Below, one piece after another: positions 1 through 39,084 of a DNA stretch of 40,388 nucleotides. Where the stretch lies: NCBI GenBank assembly GCA_003551965.1, contig PUOC01000176.1, positions 1-40,388 of the forward strand, in the 5' to 3' direction. The stretch's first letter is position 1. Each line of letters begins with the position of its first letter. The notes beneath the pieces are model-generated. The model was not told the DNA's origin. It saw nothing but the letters and a program-made list of their open reading frames with translations, and made no database searches. The DNA comes from Clostridiales bacterium. GTDB taxonomy: Bacteria; Bacillota; Limnochordia; Darwinibacteriales; B1SED10-159. Position numbers and translations under genes: made by a program.

Positions 1-2
1 GA

Positions 3-503
3 GAGCTGGGTCACGTACCAATAGCGATGGATGGGCCCACGTGCAGCTGCGGCCAACGCGGTTGTTTGGAGGCATTTGTCTCAGGGCCTGCCATTGCAGC
101 GGCAGCAGAGTTTCAGCTGGAAAGAAGCGATGCCGACTCTGGGCTGACGACGGTTTTGGAAAGGCGAGGACGGCTGACGGCTGAAGACGTGTTCTCGGCT
201 GCACAGTCAGGGGACAGGTTGGCCGGCCATGTAGTCGACGAGGCAAGGGAAGCTTTTCGGCGCAGTGTGTGGGGAGTCGTCAGTGTGTTAGACCCGGAGA
301 TTGTTGTTGTCGGCGGAGGCGTTGGTTTAGCCCCTGGTTTTTTGCAGGGTACGGAGCAGTGGGTGAATGAGCATGCAGTGGTGTCGGAAGAGGAACCGGT
401 GCGGGTTGTGCCGGCAGCTCTAGGAGACCATTCGGTCCTGCTTGGGGCCGCAGCCCTAGCCTGGGAGATTGTAGAGCAAGGCAGCATGGGCGGACCCAGG
501 TGA
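3..503 (+). CDS. ROK family protein (sugar kinase or repressor), C-terminal part, 5' truncated
   Basis: The reading frame is open from the window edge, so the N-terminal half (ATP site and start) is missing. The first visible residues carry the ROK zinc signature: a GELGH motif followed by CSCGQRGCLE, giving the His and three Cys that bind zinc in the family. A later IVVVGGGV stretch fits the second conserved glycine-rich strand. ROK proteins are sugar or N-acyl-sugar kinases, or XylR/NagC-type repressors; the part that would separate these (presence of an N-terminal HTH) lies outside the window. It stops before a hairpin at 506-532 and just ahead of a sugar-phosphate operon, so a sugar kinase role is plausible but unproven. 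Confidence 0.88.
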   Translation, partial: ELGHVPIAMDGPTCSCGQRGCLEAFVSGPAIAAAAEFQLERSDADSGLTTVLERRGRLTAEDVFSAAQSGDRLAGHVVDEAREAFRRSVWGVVSVLDPEIVVVGGGVGLAPGFLQGTEQWVNEHAVVSEEEPVRVVPAALGDHSVLLGAAALAWEIVEQGSMGGPR

Positions 504-505
504 GT

Positions 506-532
506 GGGAAACGCCTCGAAGAGGCGTTTCCC
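506..532 (+). terminator. Perfect 12-bp hairpin after the ROK gene, terminator-like without T tract
   Basis: The arms GGGAAACGCCTC (506-517) and GAGGCGTTTCCC (521-532) pair perfectly around a 3-nt loop, starting three bases after the ROK stop codon. No T run follows, so it may act as a weak or factor-assisted terminator or as a 3'-end stabiliser. It separates the ROK gene from the gmhA-like gene. Confidence 0.6.
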
Positions 533-595
533 CGGCTTGGAAGAGAGGGAAGGGGAGGAGTGGAGGGTTAGGGACAACCTAGGGGAGGCGCAACT

Positions 596-1198
596 GTGAA
601 GCGAGAAACCAAACAGACTAAGTATCTGGAAGACTATATCCAAGACCTCAAGGGTTGCATCGATCGGATCGACAGGACCCAGATATCGGCGATTTTGGAT
701 ATCTTGGACGATGCCCGGGACAGACAGCGGAATATATGGGTGATCGGCAATGGAGGCAGTGCTCTTACGGCGTCGCATTTTGCTACGGATCTTGGAAAAG
801 GAGCCTCTGTGGGCCGCAGACAGCGATTTCGTGTCCAGGCACTGACGGAGAGCGTTGGAATTATCACAGCCATGGGCAATGACATTGATTTTGACGACAT
901 TTTTGTCGAGCAGTTGAAGAACCACGCCCAGTCAGGCGATGTGCTTGTGATCTTCAGTGGCTCGGGAAGTTCAGAGAATGTACTCCGTGCGGCACGGTGG
1001 AGCCGGAAGAACCGCTTGACGGTTGTCGGTATTACGGGGCAAAGCGGCGGACAGCTCCCGTACGAAGCCGATTGTGTCTGGAAGGCAGCTTCGGATCACA
1101 TGGGACGCATTGAAGACATGCACATGATAGCCGCACACATCCTCAGTTATTTTTTCATAGAAGAGGAGTTGGAAGATGCAGAGCGTGCAGTGGATTAA
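596..1198 (+). CDS. gmhA: SIS-domain phosphoheptose isomerase (GmhA-like)
   Basis: The 200-residue protein is a single SIS domain. It has the GmhA-type phosphate-binding loop GNGGSALTASHFATDL around residues 51-66, a second serine-rich loop SGSGSSENV, and a C-terminal IEDMHMIAAHIL helix like the Glu/His helix of GmhA. Known GmhA converts sedoheptulose 7-phosphate to D-glycero-D-manno-heptose 7-phosphate in the cytoplasm. The start is GTG with a GGGGAGG ribosome site about 8 nt upstream. The HAD gene starts inside its 3' end, so translation is probably coupled. A HAD phosphatase and a PfkB kinase downstream support a heptose-type pathway, although SIS isomerases for other sugar phosphates look similar. 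Confidence 0.85.
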   Translation: MKRETKQTKYLEDYIQDLKGCIDRIDRTQISAILDILDDARDRQRNIWVIGNGGSALTASHFATDLGKGASVGRRQRFRVQALTESVGIITAMGNDIDFDDIFVEQLKNHAQSGDVLVIFSGSGSSENVLRAARWSRKNRLTVVGITGQSGGQLPYEADCVWKAASDHMGRIEDMHMIAAHILSYFFIEEELEDAERAVD

Positions 1199-2009
1199 GA
1201 AACCCGAACCGACCTCGTACACCGCAGCTCTCTTTGATTTCGATGGTACGATTTCCCTGATTCGTGAAGGCTGGCAGCCTATCATGTACGGATATTTCGT
1301 GGAGGTCCTTAAAGAGACCCCAAGGGCTGAAAAGGAGCAAGAACTGCAGGCTGTAGTGCAGGAATTTGTCGACCGACTCACAGGACAGCAGACCATCTAC
1401 CAGTGCATACAGCTGGCAGAAGAAGTGCAGGCACGGGGTGGAGAGCCCCAGGATCCTTTGGATTACAAAAAGGAATACAATCATCGTCTTCTGCGACATA
1501 TTCAAGATCGCGTCCAGGGCCTGCAAGAGGGTAGAATAGCCAGGGATGAGCTGCTAGTTCCAGGCGTCGAGGCGGTTTTGTCGGACATGTACCAAGGAGG
1601 CCTGCAGCTCTATCTGGCCAGCGGGACCGATGAGGAATACGTGATCGCCGAGGCCCAGGCTTTGGCCGTGGACAAGTACTTCAACGGTGGTATCTTTGGT
1701 GCCCTAGATGACTATCGTCGGTTTTCCAAAGCCATGGTCATCCAGGACAGAATTCTGCCAAAAATTGGTTCCAGCAAGGAGTTCATCGGGTTCGGCGACG
1801 GATTTGTTGAAATTGAGAACGTGCAGAATGCCGGCGGTCTGGCCGTTGGGGTGGCATCCGATGAAGCAAATCGCAGCGGTATCGACCGCTGGAAGCAGAA
1901 GCGTTTACTCGAAGCTGGCGCTCACTGCATCATCGCCGATTTCCGCTGCTGGCCGCAACTGCGGCAGGAACTTTGGGGAGGGAATGAGCATGCCGTATTC
2001 CATGTTTGA
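1176..2009 (+). CDS. HAD-superfamily phosphatase
   Basis: The 277-residue protein shows HAD motif I as DFDGT (nucleophile Asp21, acid/base Asp23), motif II around LYLASGT, and motif IV as GFGDGFVEIE, so the Mg-dependent phosphatase core is intact. A helical cap of about 100 residues lies between motif I and motif II (class C1 layout). It overlaps the gmhA-like gene by 23 bp, with AGAGGAG just ahead of the ATG. By position it could remove a phosphate from a heptose bisphosphate, but it is longer than typical GmhB (about 180-190 residues) and belongs to another HAD subgroup, so the substrate is unknown. Confidence 0.8.
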   Translation: MQSVQWIKKPEPTSYTAALFDFDGTISLIREGWQPIMYGYFVEVLKETPRAEKEQELQAVVQEFVDRLTGQQTIYQCIQLAEEVQARGGEPQDPLDYKKEYNHRLLRHIQDRVQGLQEGRIARDELLVPGVEAVLSDMYQGGLQLYLASGTDEEYVIAEAQALAVDKYFNGGIFGALDDYRRFSKAMVIQDRILPKIGSSKEFIGFGDGFVEIENVQNAGGLAVGVASDEANRSGIDRWKQKRLLEAGAHCIIADFRCWPQLRQELWGGNEHAVFHV

Positions 2010-2955
2010 TCCCAGTGCGTTGACAGTACGTCCCTTGGCCGAACGCGAACATGATATGTCCAGCGACGAGATCAAACCCCTAATCTGTTTGGAAGAGAAT
2101 CGTGATCCTAATTTGCGGGCTGTCGCCGATGCAGTTTTCGCAGCTCGTCAAGGCGGATCGCCGGTGTTGTTTATGATGGGCGCGCACGTAATAAAGACAG
2201 GTATGAGCCGCTTTGTGATTGATCTTATGGAGGCTGGCTGCATCACCCATGTAGGTTTCAACGGCGCCTGTGCCATACACGATTTTGAACTAGCTTTAAT
2301 CGGGGCAACGACGGAGTCTGTGGAGAAGTATATCGCCGCTGGGCAGTTTGGACTGTGGTGCGAAACGGGTAGGATGAACGATATTGTCAGAGACGGTTCC
2401 GCGGACGGTCTCGGGTTTGGTGAAGCGGTGGGGAAAGCTATCTGTGAGGGCGAATTTCCATACCGCGATGTCAGCATCTTGGCGGCCGGTTATCGTTTGG
2501 GTATTCCTGTCAGCGTGCACGTGGCTCTGGGTCAGGACATCATCCATGAACATCCTAATTTTGACGCCGCTGCGACCGGGATCGCAAGTTATCGCGATTT
2601 TCTGATCTTCACCAATGCTGTCTCCCAACTTGAGGGGGGAGTATTCCTCAATGTGGGAACGGCGGTCATGGGTCCCGAAGTGTATCTGAAAGCACTGAGT
2701 ATGGTTCGCAACCGTGCGCACCAGCAGGGTCAGCAGGTAACGGATTTCACGACCGCCGTATTTGATCTTCAGCCAATGCAGGGCAAGGATGTTCATACGA
2801 CTCCTTCCAAAGACCAGCCAGAGTATTACCATCGCTTCTGGAAGACCGTCCTGGTGCGTACAGTAAAGGATGGAGGCAGGAGTTTCTATGTGGAAGGGGA
2901 TCATCGGCAGACTGTATCTGGCTTGTGGAAACTTCTGAAGGAGGGGCAGCGGTAG
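1984..2955 (+). CDS. Deoxyhypusine synthase-like protein
   Basis: The 323-residue protein resembles the deoxyhypusine synthase fold: an NAD-type Rossmann region with HVIKTGMSRFVIDLM followed by GFNGACAIHDFELALIG, then a GLGFGEAVGKAI segment. True deoxyhypusine synthase modifies a lysine of eukaryotic/archaeal eIF5A, which bacteria lack; bacterial homologues use other substrates (for example homospermidine formation) or are uncharacterised. I cannot find the conserved C-terminal catalytic-lysine motif (WGK type). The ATG at 1984 follows GGGGAGGG and overlaps the HAD gene by 26 bp, so it belongs to this operon. An in-frame extension upstream to 1708 exists but lies over the HAD gene and is unlikely. 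Specific function unknown. Confidence 0.7.
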   Translation: MSMPYSMFDPSALTVRPLAEREHDMSSDEIKPLICLEENRDPNLRAVADAVFAARQGGSPVLFMMGAHVIKTGMSRFVIDLMEAGCITHVGFNGACAIHDFELALIGATTESVEKYIAAGQFGLWCETGRMNDIVRDGSADGLGFGEAVGKAICEGEFPYRDVSILAAGYRLGIPVSVHVALGQDIIHEHPNFDAAATGIASYRDFLIFTNAVSQLEGGVFLNVGTAVMGPEVYLKALSMVRNRAHQQGQQVTDFTTAVFDLQPMQGKDVHTTPSKDQPEYYHRFWKTVLVRTVKDGGRSFYVEGDHRQTVSGLWKLLKEGQR

Positions 2956-3971
2956 TGGATGAAGCAGTGCTGGAGCAAATACTGCAGTCGGCGCCGAAGA
3001 TGAAAATACTGGTCTTGGGAGATTACTTTCTCGACCACTATCTCTATGCCGATTCCGCCCTCGATGAGGTGTCCCGCGAAACGGGCCTCACTGCGTACCA
3101 GGTAACGAGAGTTCAGTCATCTCCGGGAGCAGCGGGAACCGTGGTCAACAACCTTCATGCCCTTGGCGTGGGAACGATATACGCCATCGGGGTGATTGGT
3201 CGCGACGGTTACGGGTATCAGCTGAAACAAGGTCTGCTGGAGCAAAACGTGAAGTTGGACGGAATGGTGGAAACGGCACTTCGCGTAACGCCCGCCTACA
3301 TCAAACCCATGTACGGCACCGGCGAGTCCTATGCCGAGCTCAATCGTCTAGACATCAAGAACTGGCACCCTTTGGAGGGGCCTATTGAGGAGGATTTGAT
3401 CCATCGTCTGCGGGGCCTGATGTCCGACGTGGATGCTGTCTTGGTGATGGATCAGGTGGAAGAAGACGAGAGAGGAGCCATAACAACCAAGGTACGGGGT
3501 GTGTTGGCGGACGAGGCCAAACGGCTGACTGGAACGCCGGTACTCGTAGACTCGCGCAGCCGGATTGGCGAGTTCAGAAATGTAATGCTCAAACCGAATC
3601 AGCAGGAAGCGCTGGCGGCTGTGAACAACGACAGCTCCTTGGATATTGAAACCGCAGCCAAGGTCCTATACAGCAGGGTAGGACGGCCCGTGTTTGTCAC
3701 CTTAGGCAACCGCGGCCAACTAGTACACGATGGGACGAAAACCGTTTTTGTGCCGGCCTTTGACGTAGATGGGCCCACGGATCCAGTGGGGGCCGGGGAC
3801 AGTGTCAGTGCAAGCATGGCGGTTGCCCTATGTGCCGGCCAGTCAGCCTTTAACGCAGCCGTGTTCGGCAATCTGACTGCATCCGTAACGGTGGCCAAGA
3901 TTGGAACAACAGGCACAGCGTCTCCCCAGGAACTGCGGAACCGCTGCCGGGTGCACCAGCGCCGAGATTGA
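2955..3971 (+). CDS. PfkB-family sugar kinase, HldA/RfaE-like
   Basis: The 338-residue PfkB kinase has an N-terminal KILVLGDYFLDHY strand like the RfaE/HldE kinase domain, a GAAGTVVNNLHALG substrate loop, and PfkB signature 2 as DPVGAGDSVSAS with the catalytic Asp in GAGD. In HldE the kinase domain makes heptose 1,7-bisphosphate from heptose 7-phosphate. Here there is only the kinase domain; no nucleotidyltransferase domain follows. GTG at 2955 is preferred because GGAGGGG lies about 9 nt upstream and the TAG of the previous gene overlaps it (TAGTG). A longer frame to 2925 has no such site. With GmhA and HAD partners a heptose phosphate is the best substrate guess. Confidence 0.8.
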   Translation: MDEAVLEQILQSAPKMKILVLGDYFLDHYLYADSALDEVSRETGLTAYQVTRVQSSPGAAGTVVNNLHALGVGTIYAIGVIGRDGYGYQLKQGLLEQNVKLDGMVETALRVTPAYIKPMYGTGESYAELNRLDIKNWHPLEGPIEEDLIHRLRGLMSDVDAVLVMDQVEEDERGAITTKVRGVLADEAKRLTGTPVLVDSRSRIGEFRNVMLKPNQQEALAAVNNDSSLDIETAAKVLYSRVGRPVFVTLGNRGQLVHDGTKTVFVPAFDVDGPTDPVGAGDSVSASMAVALCAGQSAFNAAVFGNLTASVTVAKIGTTGTASPQELRNRCRVHQRRD

Positions 3972-3998: not shown

Positions 3999-4895
3999 TT
4001 GACAAAATTAGAAACTGCTGTGGCGGTGTTTGCAGAACATGCGGAGCTCTTCCAATGCCCATTATGTACAGCACCGCTTGCCGTTTCACACCCGAGAAGC
4101 TTGGTCTGCAGCCGAGGACATTGCTTTGACTTTGCGAGGAACGGCTATGTCAATTTACTCACCCACCCTCACAAAAGCGGTGTATATACGCGGCAGATGT
4201 TCGGCAGTCGACAAGAGCTGCATCGGCGGGGATTTTTCCAGCCGGTGGTTGATGTTATGGCGGAGTTATGGACGGGGTGGATGTGGACGGCGTCGGCTCC
4301 GGTTGTTTTGGATGCCGGTTGCGGCGAGGGATCCAATCTAGCGGCGCTCAGAAGAAGTCTGGCCCGAGCTGGCCATGACTGCACTGCCATCGGAATGGAC
4401 CTAAGCAAAGAGGCGGTGCATTTGGCGGCCCGAGAATATCCGGGCTCGATGTGGTGTGTGGCGGACCTGGCACGCTGTCCGCTTACTTCAAACTCTACAG
4501 ACCTTATACTGAATATATTGTCTCCCGGAAATTATGCAGAATTCCAGCGAGTTCTAAAGCCCGGCGGTGTTCTGCTCAAGGTAATTCCCAATGCCGGACA
4601 CCTAAGCCAACTACGGCAGGTGATTGAGACAAAGGCCCCGGAGGACTACTCCAACATCCAGGTCCGTGAACGGTTTGCTGCGAACTTCTCGCCGGTGACA
4701 GAACGACGGGTTCGGTATACGAGAGAACTGGAGGATGAGGAATGCCTGCTGCTGGCAGCCATGACGCCGCTGGCGTCTGACCAAGAATGGAACGCTGTTG
4801 CTGCGGCTCTGCAATCAGCAGCTGCATATGTGAGTTTTGACATGACTGTCCTGGCAGGGCGGCCCTTTGGAACATCGAATCCTGGGAGGGAGTAG
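3999..4895 (+). CDS. RlmA-type rRNA (guanine-N1)-methyltransferase
   Basis: The 298-residue protein begins with a zinc finger (Cys20, Cys23, Cys37, His41, then a CFDFARNGYVNLL block) that is diagnostic of the RlmA/TlrB family. These enzymes methylate N1 of a guanine in 23S rRNA helix 35. A class I SAM-binding motif VLDAGCGEG follows near residues 103-110, and LSPGNYAEFQRVLKPGG gives the later Rossmann motifs. The start is TTG with GAGGTGATC 5 nt upstream. It follows the kinase by 27 nt and precedes a secreted protein, so it looks like a passenger of the operon and not part of the sugar pathway. Whether G745-type or G748-type activity applies cannot be told. Confidence 0.85.
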   Translation: MTKLETAVAVFAEHAELFQCPLCTAPLAVSHPRSLVCSRGHCFDFARNGYVNLLTHPHKSGVYTRQMFGSRQELHRRGFFQPVVDVMAELWTGWMWTASAPVVLDAGCGEGSNLAALRRSLARAGHDCTAIGMDLSKEAVHLAAREYPGSMWCVADLARCPLTSNSTDLILNILSPGNYAEFQRVLKPGGVLLKVIPNAGHLSQLRQVIETKAPEDYSNIQVRERFAANFSPVTERRVRYTRELEDEECLLLAAMTPLASDQEWNAVAAALQSAAAYVSFDMTVLAGRPFGTSNPGRE

Positions 4896-5919: not shown

Positions 5920-7707
5920 ATGGGTATTGAGAAAAGAGCGGTCAAGGTTTGGGTGTCGTTTTTGCTGGTGCTGTGTTGTCTCGGATTGGCAGTTTCGGTA
6001 GTGCCGGTGAAAGCTGAGGAGTGGGAGCCGGAGTCATTGGGGCCGAAAAAACGGGTGGCTGTTTTAGATGTGGATGTAACCTTTTCGCGAGCACCGAGAG
6101 GTCTCGCCGAAACCGTACAGGTCGTTATGATAAACGCCCTGGTCGACAGTGGACGGTATATCGTACTGGAACGTCGGGCCATGGCCGATATATTTGAAGA
6201 ACAACGGCTGGGGCTCACGGGTGCCATTACCCCAGAGACCGCCGTCCAAGTCGGCGAACTGCTCGGAGCCCAGGTGCTGGTCAAAACGGTCGTCACGGAG
6301 TTCTCGGAGGAACGGACAGCCAGCGGTCGCGTGGGCCCTGTGGTGATACAGGCGACGACAGGGCGCATTACCATGGATGTGCGGCTAATCGATGCGGCCA
6401 CCGGCGTAATACTGCACAGCAAAACTGTCTCAGCAGATAAGACTGTGGTTGGCGGTGGATTGGTTGTGCGCGATGGCGCTATCGGCATCGACAGTTTGTC
6501 GGGTACTCCCATGGGTGAAGCTGTCCAAGAAGCGGTGGAACAGGCAGTGAGCTTCGTTACCGCTGAAACAGAGGCTGTTCCATGGCAAGGGCAGGTTGTG
6601 TTGGCTGATGCGGACGGAACCTATGTTAATGCCGGACGAGACCTGGGTCTGCTTGAAGGTGATCATCTGAAGGTTTATAGACGCGGCCAGGAGCTAGTCG
6701 ACCCTGCGACCGGCCTTTCACTGGGTTTTCAGATGACGGGAATTGGTCTTGTGCGAATCAACCGGGTGGAGGATAGCTTTTCTATTGCATCATTGGTCAG
6801 CGGCCTGCCTGGATCGCGCAATGATATTGTCGAGTACGTGACGAGCCGTCAAGCGAGGCAGCTGACCTGGGACTTCCCGGAGCCCGGTGATCTCCATGCG
6901 CGGGAAGACCTATCGTCTGTTGCAGCCCTTTCGACGGTGATGCAGGACAAGACCATTGTGGTCATTATCCCGGAACACCATCTGCGGCGCACCATTCGGC
7001 GCACCATACCCGATCCGGCAGCGGAAACGGAAATCATCCGTCTGTTGGCAGAGAACGGGTTCGCAGTGGTTGATCAGCTCCAGGTGGCTGATATGCGCTA
7101 TGATGGAGCCACAATGCGTGCCATCGACGATGTTCGCGCTGCCATCTCTTTGGCCAGAAGGTTTGATGCGGATATGGTTATTATCGGTGAAGCGTTCAGT
7201 GAATGGGCAGCTGATCTGCAGGGATTGGTTTCATGCAGGGCTAGGGTGGAGGCAAGAATCATTGACATGGAAAGCGGCCGCATCGTGGCTGCCGATGCCC
7301 GGGAAGCTTCTGCACTGAACATCAGTGAAAACCTTGCCGGGAAAGCAGCGCTGCAAGAGGCTGGCGGGCTGTTGGCCGAATATTTCGTGGAGCAGCTCTA
7401 CGCCTACGGGCAGACCGAGGCGCTGGCGGACGACACTTCCTCAGACTTGTTCACCACCGAAATCGAGATATTTGGGCTGCAGAACTATGGGCAGCTGCTG
7501 GAGTTCGAGCACGCTGCCGCTGCCCTTCGCGACGTGGACTCGCTGGAAAGACAGTATTTCGCCGGCGGCACTGCCGTGATTGTGGTGGAAAGTTGGATAC
7601 CGCCTGCGTCTCTGACGGATCTTATCTACACCATGCAGCTTACATCGATGGATTTGGATATTGTGGGGTTCTCGGGTTCAAGGGTGGAGCTTGAAGTGCT
7701 TCCGTGA
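5920..7707 (+). CDS. CsgG/FlgT-like exported envelope protein
   Basis: The 595-residue protein has a signal peptide (hydrophobic residues about 10-30, cleavage near VKAEE). A CsgG-type domain spans about 43-215: KKRVAVLDVDVTF, GRYIVLERRAMADIFEEQ, LLGAQVLVKTVVTEF and a VRLIDAATGVILHSK strand. Residues about 220-300 look like the FlgT C-terminal barrel (GRDLGLLEGDHLKVYRRG). A second alpha/beta segment, about 320-480, resembles another CsgG/LPP20-like unit (ADMVIIGEAFSEW, ARIIDMESGRIVAAD). No lipobox is visible, unlike CsgG itself. CsgG forms outer-membrane export pores; FlgT belongs to the H-ring of sodium-driven flagella. A periplasmic or outer-membrane scaffold is likely. It has its own promoter and a downstream hairpin, so it is probably monocistronic. 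Confidence 0.72.
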   Translation: MGIEKRAVKVWVSFLLVLCCLGLAVSVVPVKAEEWEPESLGPKKRVAVLDVDVTFSRAPRGLAETVQVVMINALVDSGRYIVLERRAMADIFEEQRLGLTGAITPETAVQVGELLGAQVLVKTVVTEFSEERTASGRVGPVVIQATTGRITMDVRLIDAATGVILHSKTVSADKTVVGGGLVVRDGAIGIDSLSGTPMGEAVQEAVEQAVSFVTAETEAVPWQGQVVLADADGTYVNAGRDLGLLEGDHLKVYRRGQELVDPATGLSLGFQMTGIGLVRINRVEDSFSIASLVSGLPGSRNDIVEYVTSRQARQLTWDFPEPGDLHAREDLSSVAALSTVMQDKTIVVIIPEHHLRRTIRRTIPDPAAETEIIRLLAENGFAVVDQLQVADMRYDGATMRAIDDVRAAISLARRFDADMVIIGEAFSEWAADLQGLVSCRARVEARIIDMESGRIVAADAREASALNISENLAGKAALQEAGGLLAEYFVEQLYAYGQTEALADDTSSDLFTTEIEIFGLQNYGQLLEFEHAAAALRDVDSLERQYFAGGTAVIVVESWIPPASLTDLIYTMQLTSMDLDIVGFSGSRVELEVLP

Positions 7708-35466: not shown

Positions 35467-35775
35467 ATGAAGACAGCTTGGAGTCCCAACGACAATGTGG
35501 CCGCCCGGGCACAGCAGGCCGAACGGCAGTCCACATCCCAACGTCAGCTGCAATCCGTGTCGCAGGAGTTTGAGGCCTTGTTTCTGCAGCAGATGTTGGG
35601 AGCCATGCGCAGTACCGTTCCGGACAGCGATCTCCTCGGCGACAGTAGGGCGGAAGAAACCTTCGAAACCATGCTCGATGAAGAAATGGCCAAAGAAATG
35701 TCGCAAGCCGGCGGCATCGGCTTGGCGGACATCCTGTATAAGCAGATGGTGCACTTCGTCTCCCACGACGATTAA
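35467..35775 (+). CDS. Rod-binding protein FlgJ, N-terminal domain only
   Basis: The 102-residue protein is the rod-binding domain of FlgJ: QEFEALFLQQMLGAMR, a variable charged middle and FETMLDEEMAKEMSQAGGIGLADILYKQM. The muramidase domain of enterobacterial FlgJ is absent, as in many other bacteria, so the wall opening for the rod must come from another enzyme. It lies 15 nt after flgI and its stop codon is built into the terminator stem. Confidence 0.9.
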   Translation: MKTAWSPNDNVAARAQQAERQSTSQRQLQSVSQEFEALFLQQMLGAMRSTVPDSDLLGDSRAEETFETMLDEEMAKEMSQAGGIGLADILYKQMVHFVSHDD

Positions 35776-35798
35776 CCGCTCACAGGAGCGGTTTTTTT
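35775..35798 (+). terminator. Strong terminator of the flagellar operon
   Basis: ACCGCTC (35775-35781) and GAGCGGT (35786-35792) form a perfect 7-bp stem with a 4-nt loop, followed by a seven-T run that overlaps the stem end (35792-35798). Confidence 0.92.
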
Positions 35799-35814
35799 CT
35801 TGGCATGGAGGAAC

Positions 35815-35842
35815 TTGTCAGGCAGGCAAGAAGTTATATAGG
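35815..35842 (+). promoter_or_regulatory. Candidate promoter of the glycosidase-S55-BamA group
   Basis: TTGTCA (35815-35820), a 16-bp spacer and TATAGG (35837-35842) form a moderate match, just after the flagellar terminator and 24 nt before the next start codon. Confidence 0.4.
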
Positions 35843-35866
35843 GTACATTTGCGAGGAGGAACTGCC

Positions 35867-37258
35867 ATGAAACCATTACGCCTGGGATGTTTGACGCTGG
35901 CCGCATGTATCCTGCTGACGGGGTGGGTTGCCGCTTTTGAAGTACGCGAGGAAAAGGAATATGTGCAGCTAGAACTGCCGGTGCAGCAGTCCCGGGAGTT
36001 TCGAGTTTGGCATACGGCGAATCCTATGAAAGTTATCGTCGATCTAGACTGGGTAGTTCCAGAACTGCACGGTACCAGCGAATACGAAGATATTGCTCTG
36101 GAGAAGGTCCGTGCTTCGGAACGTCCCGATGCCGAGGGCACGCGACTTGTAATGGACTTCAAATACCAACTGCCGGAACCCAGTTATACCGTGGAAGATG
36201 GGCAGCTTCTGGTCCGAGTGGACAAGGTCTTCAACTGGGCTTCTGAAAGCGGTATTTCCCAAGGCGTACGGTATGGACACCAGCGTCGGGGCAGCGCGGC
36301 CGGCCCGCTGATTGTCAATTACCTCAAGGCGCGCATCACGGATCCCGACATCGAATTCAGCAGTGTGCTGGCTAGAGATGAGGTGTTTGAACGGGAACTG
36401 GTGAGTTCCATGGCTGACAGGAGCCAAGCGATTGCAGCGGTCAATGGGGCCTATTTTGCTCCCGATGGCAGACCTCTCGGTGTCTTGGCCATCGACGGGC
36501 AATTGGTCAGCGAACCCTTTGCCAAGAGAACGGCCATTGGTTTGGGCAAGAACACGGTGGTCATGGGGTCGGTGGATTCCAATGGTTTTGTGGAGACAGC
36601 CCATGGGCGCATGGACATTACCGGCATGAATCGACCGAGGATGCAGGATGACCTGATCGTCTATACATCTCACTATGGAAGTGCAACAGAAACCAACGTC
36701 TATGGCCTGGATGTGTTGGTGCGAAATGGGCGGGTGGAAGCTGTGCAGGAAGGGAGCATGGATATTCCCGAAGACGGCGTGGTGCTAAGCGGCCACGGGG
36801 CCGGCCGTGACTTCCTCATGGGACTGCAGCCGGGCGATGAGGCCGACTGGCATGTGGCTTTGGAACCCAATTGGTTTGATGAAGGCATAACCGAAATTAT
36901 CGGCGGCGGTCCAAGAATTGTCAAGGATGGAGAAGTATATATATCAGGGGAAATAGAACGCTTTCAGCGGGACATTACCCGGGGACGTGCACCGAGAACG
37001 GCGTTGGGTATAACGGAAGATGATCGGCTTCTGATCGTGACGGTGAACGGGCGAAATCCCAATATCAGTGTGGGAATGACGCTGGAGGAACTGGCGGACT
37101 TGATGCTGGAATTGGGTGCAGTCGATGCCATGAATCTTGACGGAGGCGGGTCAACGACCATGATCGTCCGCAACCGCATTCTGAATATCCCTTCGGATGG
37201 CGTGGAGCGGAAGGTCAGCAACGCTTTGGTAATCAGTACACCGGAGAGCAGAAAGTAG
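35867..37258 (+). CDS. Exported AMIN-domain phosphodiester glycosidase-family (NAGPA/DUF2233) protein
   Basis: The 463-residue protein has a signal peptide (about 1-24). An AMIN-like domain follows (about 25-125: REFRVWHTANPMKVIVDLD, EGTRLVMDFKY), of the kind that targets peptidoglycan or outer-membrane machinery. The C-terminal domain (about 150-460) is the NAGPA type: AAVNGAYFAPDGRPLG, RAPRTALGI and MNLDGGGSTTM. NAGPA in animals removes GlcNAc from phosphodiesters; bacterial members probably act on wall or surface glycans. GAGGAGG precedes the ATG. Confidence 0.85.
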   Translation: MKPLRLGCLTLAACILLTGWVAAFEVREEKEYVQLELPVQQSREFRVWHTANPMKVIVDLDWVVPELHGTSEYEDIALEKVRASERPDAEGTRLVMDFKYQLPEPSYTVEDGQLLVRVDKVFNWASESGISQGVRYGHQRRGSAAGPLIVNYLKARITDPDIEFSSVLARDEVFERELVSSMADRSQAIAAVNGAYFAPDGRPLGVLAIDGQLVSEPFAKRTAIGLGKNTVVMGSVDSNGFVETAHGRMDITGMNRPRMQDDLIVYTSHYGSATETNVYGLDVLVRNGRVEAVQEGSMDIPEDGVVLSGHGAGRDFLMGLQPGDEADWHVALEPNWFDEGITEIIGGGPRIVKDGEVYISGEIERFQRDITRGRAPRTALGITEDDRLLIVTVNGRNPNISVGMTLEELADLMLELGAVDAMNLDGGGSTTMIVRNRILNIPSDGVERKVSNALVISTPESRK

Positions 37259-37272
37259 GAGGCATGGCGCCA

Positions 37273-39084
37273 GTGAAAAAAGCTGCATGCATACTCTTTA
37301 TCGCACTGATGGGATCCATCATGGTGCTTCCTGTCTCGGCCTTCGAAGTATATCCGTTGGATGATCTGGAACCGGGCATGCGGGGACAAGGTCTGACTGT
37401 GATTAAAGGGTATAACGTAGAAACATTTTTTGTCGAGATTATCGATGTCATTCCACAATCGCCGCCGACGCCGCCGCTTATCATGGTCCGCGCCACCGGC
37501 GATGTCATTGAACGGTCCGGGGGCATTGCGTCGGGTATGAGCGGCAGTCCCATCTATGTGGATGACAAGTTGCTGGGTGCCATTGGATATGGCTATGCCA
37601 AAACCGATCATCGAGTGGGGTTGGTTACACCGGCCGAGCCCATGGTGGAACTGCTGGATCGGCTTCCGGATCACCATCTGTCTGTGGATGCCGTGTCACT
37701 TCCCGACGGGTTTCGTCCCCTGGAGACTCCACTAATGCTCTCGGGAATTTCCGGCCGTGCCAAGAAGCTGTTGGAGAGTCGTTTGGATCACCTGGATCTG
37801 GCCATTATGGCAGGGCTGTCCGGGGATGCACGCAACGATGAAGCCCCCCCCTTGACTGCTGGCAGTGCCTTTGGTGTGCAGCTCTTGCGGGGAGATTTTC
37901 AAGCAACCTCCTTCGGCACGGTGACGTTAATCGATGGCCACAGGTTTGTTGGGTTCGGACATCCATTCATCCACAAGGGCAATGTGGGGATGTTTGTTAC
38001 CCCGGCTAGGGTTCACTATACCATGGAGAACATGGAGTTTCCCTTCAAAATCGCATCGGCCGGTCAGACGGTGGGTTCACTCCTAGAGGACCGGGCAGCG
38101 GGTATTGCCGGTGTTCTGGACCGCGAGCCCCCCTTCTTGCCTGTGGATATGCGGATAACGGATCTGGAAGGGGATACGCACAAGCAGTATTCGGTAGAGT
38201 CTGTGGTGGAGCCGTCGCTGATGGAGTCGCTGATTATCAGCAGTGCCTATCAAGCCATTGACGCCACACTGGATCGCGTTGGCAGCGGTACGGCCTACGT
38301 CCGCATCGAGTTCCACGCTGATGAATTTGCCAACCGGGTCATTCGAGACAATATGCATTTCAGCGATTCGGACATTGCAGTATGGACCCTCGTAGATTTG
38401 ATGGAAGGGATGGAGCTGTTCATCCACAATGCCCTCCAGGAAGTGAATTTATCCCAAATCGAGGTGGATATCGACATTGAACGAGATCGCCGGACAGCGG
38501 CGATAGAAAAGGCCACGCCCCGCCAATTCGATGTTGAGGCGGGAGACAGTGTCGAGGTGGAAGTGCAGATAAGGCCGTACCGTGAGGAAGTGCAAACGCG
38601 GATCTTGACGATGGAAGTACCCGATGATACGCTGCCGGGGACCATGACGGTAACGGCACGCGCGGGCGGAAGCGATTACTATTTTGGTAAGCCCTCGGTC
38701 CATACCACCTTTCAGGATATTGAGAACGGTGATCAGCCGATGCGAGACGTTCCCACAGGTATAGAAAGCCTTGACATGCTGATTGAGCATTATATGAACC
38801 GCGAGCGCAATAATGAAATCGTCGTTGAATTTTTTCCTTTCCTGGATTCGTTTCCGGTAGCGGAAGAGCCGGAGGCCGAGGAAGCACCTCCGCCGGACAT
38901 CGTTCCCGACGAAGAACCGCCCCTTGATGAAGGTGAAAATGACGTGCCAGACGCTGGGGAGGAAGAAGGGTATCATTGGCAGTGGGGTGAGACAAGTCAT
39001 GAGCCAATTCGGGTTCGGCTTGATACCAGCTATGTGATGGAAGGTATGGCTTCATTTGATCTTGAGGTTCAGGACCAGCCGTAG
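37273..39084 (+). CDS. SpoIVB-like S55 domain exported protein
   Basis: The 603-residue protein has a signal peptide (about 1-23) and the S55 region with YPLDDLEPGMRGQG, then GGIASGMSGSPIYVDDKLLGAIGYG, in which the GMSGSP serine (about 90-92) would be the nucleophile. A second conserved block reads DGHRFVGFGHPF. No His lies before that serine, unlike SpoIVB, and there is no PDZ domain, so this is the long non-sporulation S55 group and its activity is open. The tail (about 535-590) is rich in Glu, Asp and Pro. GTG 37273 is chosen because AGGAGG lies 10 nt upstream; ATG 37264 is too close. Confidence 0.8.
   Translation: MKKAACILFIALMGSIMVLPVSAFEVYPLDDLEPGMRGQGLTVIKGYNVETFFVEIIDVIPQSPPTPPLIMVRATGDVIERSGGIASGMSGSPIYVDDKLLGAIGYGYAKTDHRVGLVTPAEPMVELLDRLPDHHLSVDAVSLPDGFRPLETPLMLSGISGRAKKLLESRLDHLDLAIMAGLSGDARNDEAPPLTAGSAFGVQLLRGDFQATSFGTVTLIDGHRFVGFGHPFIHKGNVGMFVTPARVHYTMENMEFPFKIASAGQTVGSLLEDRAAGIAGVLDREPPFLPVDMRITDLEGDTHKQYSVESVVEPSLMESLIISSAYQAIDATLDRVGSGTAYVRIEFHADEFANRVIRDNMHFSDSDIAVWTLVDLMEGMELFIHNALQEVNLSQIEVDIDIERDRRTAAIEKATPRQFDVEAGDSVEVEVQIRPYREEVQTRILTMEVPDDTLPGTMTVTARAGGSDYYFGKPSVHTTFQDIENGDQPMRDVPTGIESLDMLIEHYMNRERNNEIVVEFFPFLDSFPVAEEPEAEEAPPPDIVPDEEPPLDEGENDVPDAGEEEGYHWQWGETSHEPIRVRLDTSYVMEGMASFDLEVQDQP

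Follow-up and report, generated by a model that had tools for sequence, protein, structure and literature searches.

A GSU2086-family protein in a heptose-like operon: a possible NAD-dependent sugar epimerase with the predicted fold of deoxyhypusine synthase

The stretch of DNA analysed in this study (the window; 40,388 nucleotides, GenBank assembly GCA_003551965.1, contig PUOC01000176.1, positions 1 to 40,388) comes from a Clostridiales bacterium and carries near its start a cluster of genes resembling those for heptose synthesis, in the middle of which lies a gene for a 323-residue protein that resembles deoxyhypusine synthase (DHS). What reaction would such a protein carry out among sugar genes? 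We propose, with a probability of about one half (0.52), that its family, known as GSU2086, is a nicotinamide adenine dinucleotide (NAD)-dependent, redox-neutral heptose epimerase that replaces the epimerase HldD, and that the copy in the window acts on an unactivated sugar phosphate. A preliminary description of the locus had suggested an NAD-dependent step on a sugar phosphate, and this is still the best reading, drawn from fold and genomic context. The first base of the window is also the first of contig C273, in an assembly of 3.87 Mb that is 98% complete (genome G000), and four of the window's genes run head to tail from 596 to 3971:

596 to 1198, forward strand: GmhA-like SIS isomerase of a divergent subfamily (GTG start; SIS_2, 7e-18)
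1176 to 2009, forward strand: HAD phosphatase with a C1 cap, not GmhB (Pfam HAD; motifs; structure model with a mean predicted local distance difference test, pLDDT, of 93.3)
1984 to 2955, forward strand: GSU2086-family protein, 323 amino acids, predicted DHS/LOR-SDH fold (NF052581, 380.5 bits)
2955 to 3971, forward strand: HldA-like PfkB sugar kinase (GTG start; PfkB, 4e-25)

The gene order given in the preliminary description, including a ROK gene upstream, was confirmed with its coordinates. The genes overlap by 23 (SIS/HAD), 26 (HAD/GSU2086) and 1 (GSU2086/kinase) bases, and the four are therefore considered one translation unit; a longer start of the kinase gene is possible at 2925.

Over residues 8-316, the 323-residue protein scored 380.5 bits with the NCBIfam model NF052581 ('GSU2086 family'), whose cut-off is 250. 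This was its sole NCBIfam match, and the HldD model TIGR02197 was not matched. No Pfam model scored above its cut-off: PF01916 (deoxyhypusine synthase) gave no match at E 0.001, and PF21570 (LOR/SDH) reached 21.9 bits, below the gathering score of 27. An AlphaFold2 model built from a 59-sequence alignment (pLDDT 93.6, predicted template modelling score 0.92) was compared with the PDB using Foldseek, and the matches were deoxyhypusine synthases, ArgZ/AgrE (6lrf, 6juy) and 3c2q, a LOR/SDH protein from an archaeon (E 1e-7 to 1e-5, and 4e-7 for 7cmc; probability 1.00; template modelling (TM) score about 0.5). In a profile search of PDB sequences, ArgZ/AgrE and 3c2q were matched through the N-terminal Rossmann part, with a common A-x-HD-x-E motif, and no DHS was among the matches; against two DHS sequences of Bacillota, a profile–profile alignment covered residues 48-102 only, at a probability of 31%, which is too weak to place the catalytic lysine. 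On these results, the GSU2086 family is predicted to form a third branch, beside DHS and the LOR/SDH ornithine cyclodeaminases, of the NAD enzymes with this fold. The earlier label of a deoxyhypusine-synthase-like protein thus holds for the modelled fold, but hidden Markov models place the protein in NF052581 and not in PF01916. It also differs from LOR/SDH proteins in having sugar rather than amino-acid genes as neighbours, and from DHS and homospermidine synthase in having no polyamine context. No paper tying DHS-like proteins to heptose was found in the literature.

The family tree contained two deep clades, I and II+III, both with full support in the Shimodaira–Hasegawa-like approximate likelihood ratio test. 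Clade I included the window protein, other Bacillota, Planctomycetota, Armatimonadota, Aminicenantes and a 'B' set of Nitrospirota and deltaproteobacteria; clade II+III included Chloroflexota, Woesearchaeota, Omnitrophota and Nitrospirota. The clade I proteins of a Daviesbacteria metagenome-assembled genome (L074) and of a Nealsonbacteria one (L058) grouped with unrelated phyla, as may follow from transfer or mis-binning. In the window protein, residues 287 and 288 are Lys and Thr, a loop is inserted at about 264-283 and the motif FGLW is present; groups II and III instead have Asn288 and FGM.

The genomic context of clade II+III is the adenosine diphosphate (ADP)-heptose pathway. A locus from Woesearchaeota (L095) held in a row gmhA (203 bits, cut-off 209), GSU2086, hldA (370, above 345), gmhB (175, cut-off 178) and hldC (188.5, above 181.5), and in Omnitrophota GSU2086 and hldA (385 bits, above 345) were followed by genes of KdsA, KdsD and KdsC type (Kdo), the kinase of one locus (L102) carrying a fused KdsB-type domain. 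Open-frame fusions joined GSU2086 to a SIS domain with canonical GmhA motifs in Anaerolineae (L093, 2204-3877) and to an HldC-like domain in L082 (7968-9560). By locus numbering, the Geobacter gene sits between hldE and gmhA, and in Geobacter sulfurreducens transposon sequencing the electrode fitness values were -3.1 for hldE (GSU2085), -3.2 for GSU2086 and -3.7 for gmhA (GSU2087), with polar effects reported to be relieved by cassette read-through (PMC5585712). The preliminary description saw no place for the DHS-like gene in a heptose pathway; its relatives sit in complete ADP-heptose operons, and the family was already named.

The known last step of this pathway is the conversion of ADP-D,D-heptose to ADP-L,D-heptose by HldD (PMC10221265), an ADP-glyceromanno-heptose 6-epimerase of an unrelated short-chain dehydrogenase/reductase sequence family, which resembles GSU2086 in its proposed role, operon slot and complementary distribution. 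Across 148 Nitrospirota genomes, GSU2086 was found in 104, HldD above its cut-off in 25 and both in 1; most genomes in the analysis were assembled from metagenomes and may not be complete, and the distribution statistics are clustered by phylogeny. Among the 126 that were positive for HldC/E, 92 had GSU2086 only, 23 HldD only, 1 both and 10 neither (Fisher 2e-16), and the heptose adenylyltransferase itself was weakly and positively associated with GSU2086, not anticorrelated. In a RecA tree covering 100 of the Nitrospirota genomes, HldD without GSU2086 was seen at about five places. Of the GSU2086-positive genomes from many phyla, 29/33 were without HldD, and three of the four exceptions are known only with clade I.

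The strongest single point for replacement is synteny. A block gmhA-X-hldC-mfd, in some genomes with extra genes before hldC, had GSU2086 as X in ten genomes (G150, G160, G169, G162, G288, G189, G146, G274, G166 and G147; the G160 contig begins at GSU2086, so that gmhA is out of view). In two others, in which GSU2086 was not found, hldD was X, at 399 bits (G178) and 339 bits (G204) against a cut-off of 275. The gene mfd lay downstream in 12/12 blocks. In the RecA tree, G178 grouped with G150/G160/G169 (support 88) and G204 was placed elsewhere. GSU2086 thus appears to stand in for HldD.

In deoxyhypusine synthase and ornithine cyclodeaminase, NAD accepts a hydride and returns it within one cycle, with no net redox change, and HldD likewise epimerises with its own NADP by removing and returning a hydride. 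The hydride cycle of the DHS and cyclodeaminase enzymes is exactly what an epimerase needs, and we therefore propose an NAD-dependent epimerisation at C6. In groups II and III, a hydride would pass from C6 of the heptose to NAD and then back onto the opposite face, so that the net reaction, D-glycero- to L-glycero-D-manno-heptose, would be redox-neutral and would do the job of HldD.

Several points weigh against this proposal. NAD binding is deduced from a predicted fold with a TM score of about 0.5. The window protein belongs to the other clade and is 36-44% identical to group III, which makes the transfer of function from group III uncertain; in addition, clade I proteins and HldD coexist in G109, G132 and G134. 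Main-clade GSU2086 and HldD occur together in two genomes (G141 and G252), and the ten HldC-positive Nitrospirota genomes with neither protein have to be set beside the complementary pattern. A paired test on the RecA tree gave about three informative supported pairs, all of opposite state, which are too few to reach significance (p 0.25). Many lipopolysaccharide (LPS) heptoses remain in the D,D form, and the absence of HldD need not mean replacement because organisms that keep D,D-heptose would also fit.

How far does the heptose pathway extend to the window itself? The preliminary description took the isomerase, HAD protein and kinase as the known steps to a heptose 1-phosphate, a view that the comparison with canonical enzymes did not bear out. 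The same kinds of enzymes surround GSU2086 as in the pathway of GmhA, HldA, GmhB and HldC, which is canonical in groups II and III, but in the window the isomerase scored 96 bits with the gmhA model TIGR00441 (cut-off 209), the kinase 149 bits with the HldA model TIGR02198 (rfaE_dom_I; cut-off 345), and the HAD protein matched no GmhB model. The active-site motifs of the isomerase are His-Asp and Glu-His, compared with His-Glu and Gln-His in GmhA (E65 to D, Q172 to E); we take the numbering and catalytic roles of Glu65 and Gln172 to be those of Escherichia coli GmhA. Most clade I SIS partners share this Asp and Glu, the exceptions being L008/L034 and L029. GmhB is a HAD-IIIA protein of histidinol-phosphatase type, whereas the window HAD protein has a predicted C1-capped fold similar to beta-phosphoglucomutase, AlnB and phosphonatase; all four motifs (DxDGT, S/T, K and GDxxxE) are intact, which would allow either phosphatase or mutase activity. 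The kinase is divergent from HldA and HldE and retains an intact GAGD motif. No HldC/HldE nucleotidyltransferase (TIGR02199) was matched in the genome at E 0.001, so that the earlier remark on its absence from the window extends to the whole genome; no HldD exceeded its cut-off there, and LpxC was not detected. Thus, each of the isomerase, GSU2086 protein and kinase of the window has diverged from its heptose namesake, and the three seem to work without the usual nucleotide activation. An LPS role in this genome was rejected given the absence of LpxC.

Since no heptose nucleotidyltransferase, HldD or LpxC was detected in the genome, the window protein probably uses an unactivated sugar phosphate as its substrate, outside LPS. 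The clade I partners (SIS isomerase, kinase and HAD phosphatase) have diverged jointly, and the window copy would act after the isomerase and before the kinase, epimerising heptose 7-phosphate, sedoheptulose 7-phosphate or a closely similar compound and yielding a product for something other than LPS. Recurrence across genomes was in accord with the gene order of the window: among 44 clade I-A loci from many phyla, a HAD gene was beside GSU2086 in 33, a kinase gene in 33 and both in 27, and the neighbourhood is therefore not a product of chance. ROK kinases recurred in the Pfam tally of 135 neighbours of these loci, and ROK genes were beside the module in L030, L062 and L065. No glycosyltransferase family was present among the 25 most frequent Pfam families of clade I-A neighbours, and a polysaccharide cluster was consequently unsupported.

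The occupation of the hldD slot and the complementary distribution where HldC is present would equally be expected if GSU2086 were isofunctional with HldD and epimerised ADP-D-glycero-D-manno-heptose, the window copy having drifted to an unrelated role. We regard this as unlikely, since clade I modules occur in Bacillota without an HldC/HldE match (G000, G101-G103, G119 and G120), and the GmhA fusion of L093 and the gmhA-GSU2086-hldA order of L095 suggest an earlier step. It is because of this GmhA adjacency and fusion, together with the nucleotidyltransferase-free clade I genomes, that epimerisation at the sugar-phosphate stage is favoured over ADP-heptose.

Clade I-B loci of Nitrospirota and deltaproteobacteria contained HldC-like domains and a kinase resembling HldE but divergent from it (85-105 and 116 bits), along with a divergent SIS protein, and had radical SAM and split thiamine pyrophosphate (TPP)-enzyme genes of transketolase or E1 type nearby. 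In L083 (7998-11592), L068 (8001-15201) and others, GSU2086 was accompanied by a stand-alone HldC-like domain and a second one fused to the divergent kinase, as well as by a radical SAM/SPASM protein and E1/transketolase-type subunits. These loci look like an undescribed nucleotide-sugar pathway parallel to that of ADP-heptose; their genomes often had an additional HldC above its cut-off elsewhere, and G129 carried one clade I-B and one group III copy. The TPP-enzyme and radical SAM genes also fit another reaction of a C7 sugar phosphate, such as an NAD-assisted supply of sedoheptulose 7-phosphate, another oxidation, an aldol reaction or a cyclisation, with the exchange with HldD being coincidental. 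For such chemistry the clade I-specific Lys287 (RFWKT in the window protein) could form a Schiff base. The preliminary description saw no catalytic lysine motif of true DHS, and the WGK motif is indeed not present; Lys287, however, is in a plausible place and by sequence alone is the obvious candidate for the imine lysine of DHS. It was kept in 50/50 clade I, 1/9 group II and 0/28 group III proteins, and this near-confinement to clade I means that it is no family-wide catalytic residue. A different C7 reaction would not account for the two lineages that have hldD at this position of the block, nor for the 92/23/1/10 split, and we find it slightly more doubtful than isofunction with HldD.

The residues conserved throughout the family point to catalysis. 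H68, N93, H99, E102, E111, D185 and H188 were invariant over 90 sequences, and E232, K236, R242, R284 and R292 were invariant bar alignment gaps; this set would suit a polar, phosphate-bearing substrate. A non-catalytic role, in which the protein would partner or regulate the isomerase, as the fusion and adjacency to SIS/GmhA might imply, is very improbable given the more than 20 polar and glycine residues that are invariant in the same sequences, as is typical of an active site. Least probable of all is an amine-metabolism enzyme of deoxyhypusine, homospermidine or ornithine cyclodeaminase type placed by chance in sugar operons; the protein shares the fold and weakly matches the C-terminal domain of ArgZ/AgrE by sequence, but it has neither a PF01916 match nor a PF21570 score above 27, its family does not conserve the DHS lysine position, and its sugar-gene neighbours are constant over phyla. 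The window genome has no DHS of its own, as PF01916 had no match there, and a polyamine role was therefore dropped.

Two features precede the module in the window:

3 to 503, forward strand: ROK-family sugar kinase, C-terminal part (Pfam ROK, E 8e-29)
507 to 533, forward strand: perfect 12-bp hairpin with no T tail, between the ROK and SIS genes (from the sequence; -24.1 kcal/mol, z -2.8)

Since the window begins at the contig end, the 5' part of the ROK gene is missing. The hairpin lies in the gap of 92 bases between the ROK and SIS genes and might serve in processing or attenuation; the ROK gene is possibly a unit separate from the four-gene module. A scan for promoters and terminators gave no signal clearly above chance. 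Directly 3' of the kinase is a gene for an RlmA/Erm32-like 23S rRNA (guanine-N1) methyltransferase (3999-4895, TTG start), and an RlmA-like gene is also 3' of the module in relatives such as L030. Farther along, a CsgG-domain protein with weak FlgT-like domains (5920-7707) is unusual for a genome without LpxC, and a SpoIVB-type S55 peptidase domain protein (37264-39084) adjoins a phosphodiester glycosidase (35495-37258), which suggests sporulation-related genes.

Taken as a whole, we tentatively suggest, at somewhat less than even odds, that the proteins of the GSU2086 family make up a new sugar epimerase class with the DHS fold, one that has displaced HldD in much of Nitrospirota and in other lineages, and that the divergent clade including the window protein serves a parallel heptose-phosphate pathway without nucleotide activation and outside LPS. 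If this is true, the missing last heptose step would be filled in many lineages without HldD, and a large family, present in 104/148 Nitrospirota genomes, would gain a function. Sugar epimerisation would join the reactions known for the fold of deoxyhypusine synthase, and an undescribed heptose-like sugar-phosphate pathway would be indicated in Bacillota, Planctomycetota and Armatimonadota.

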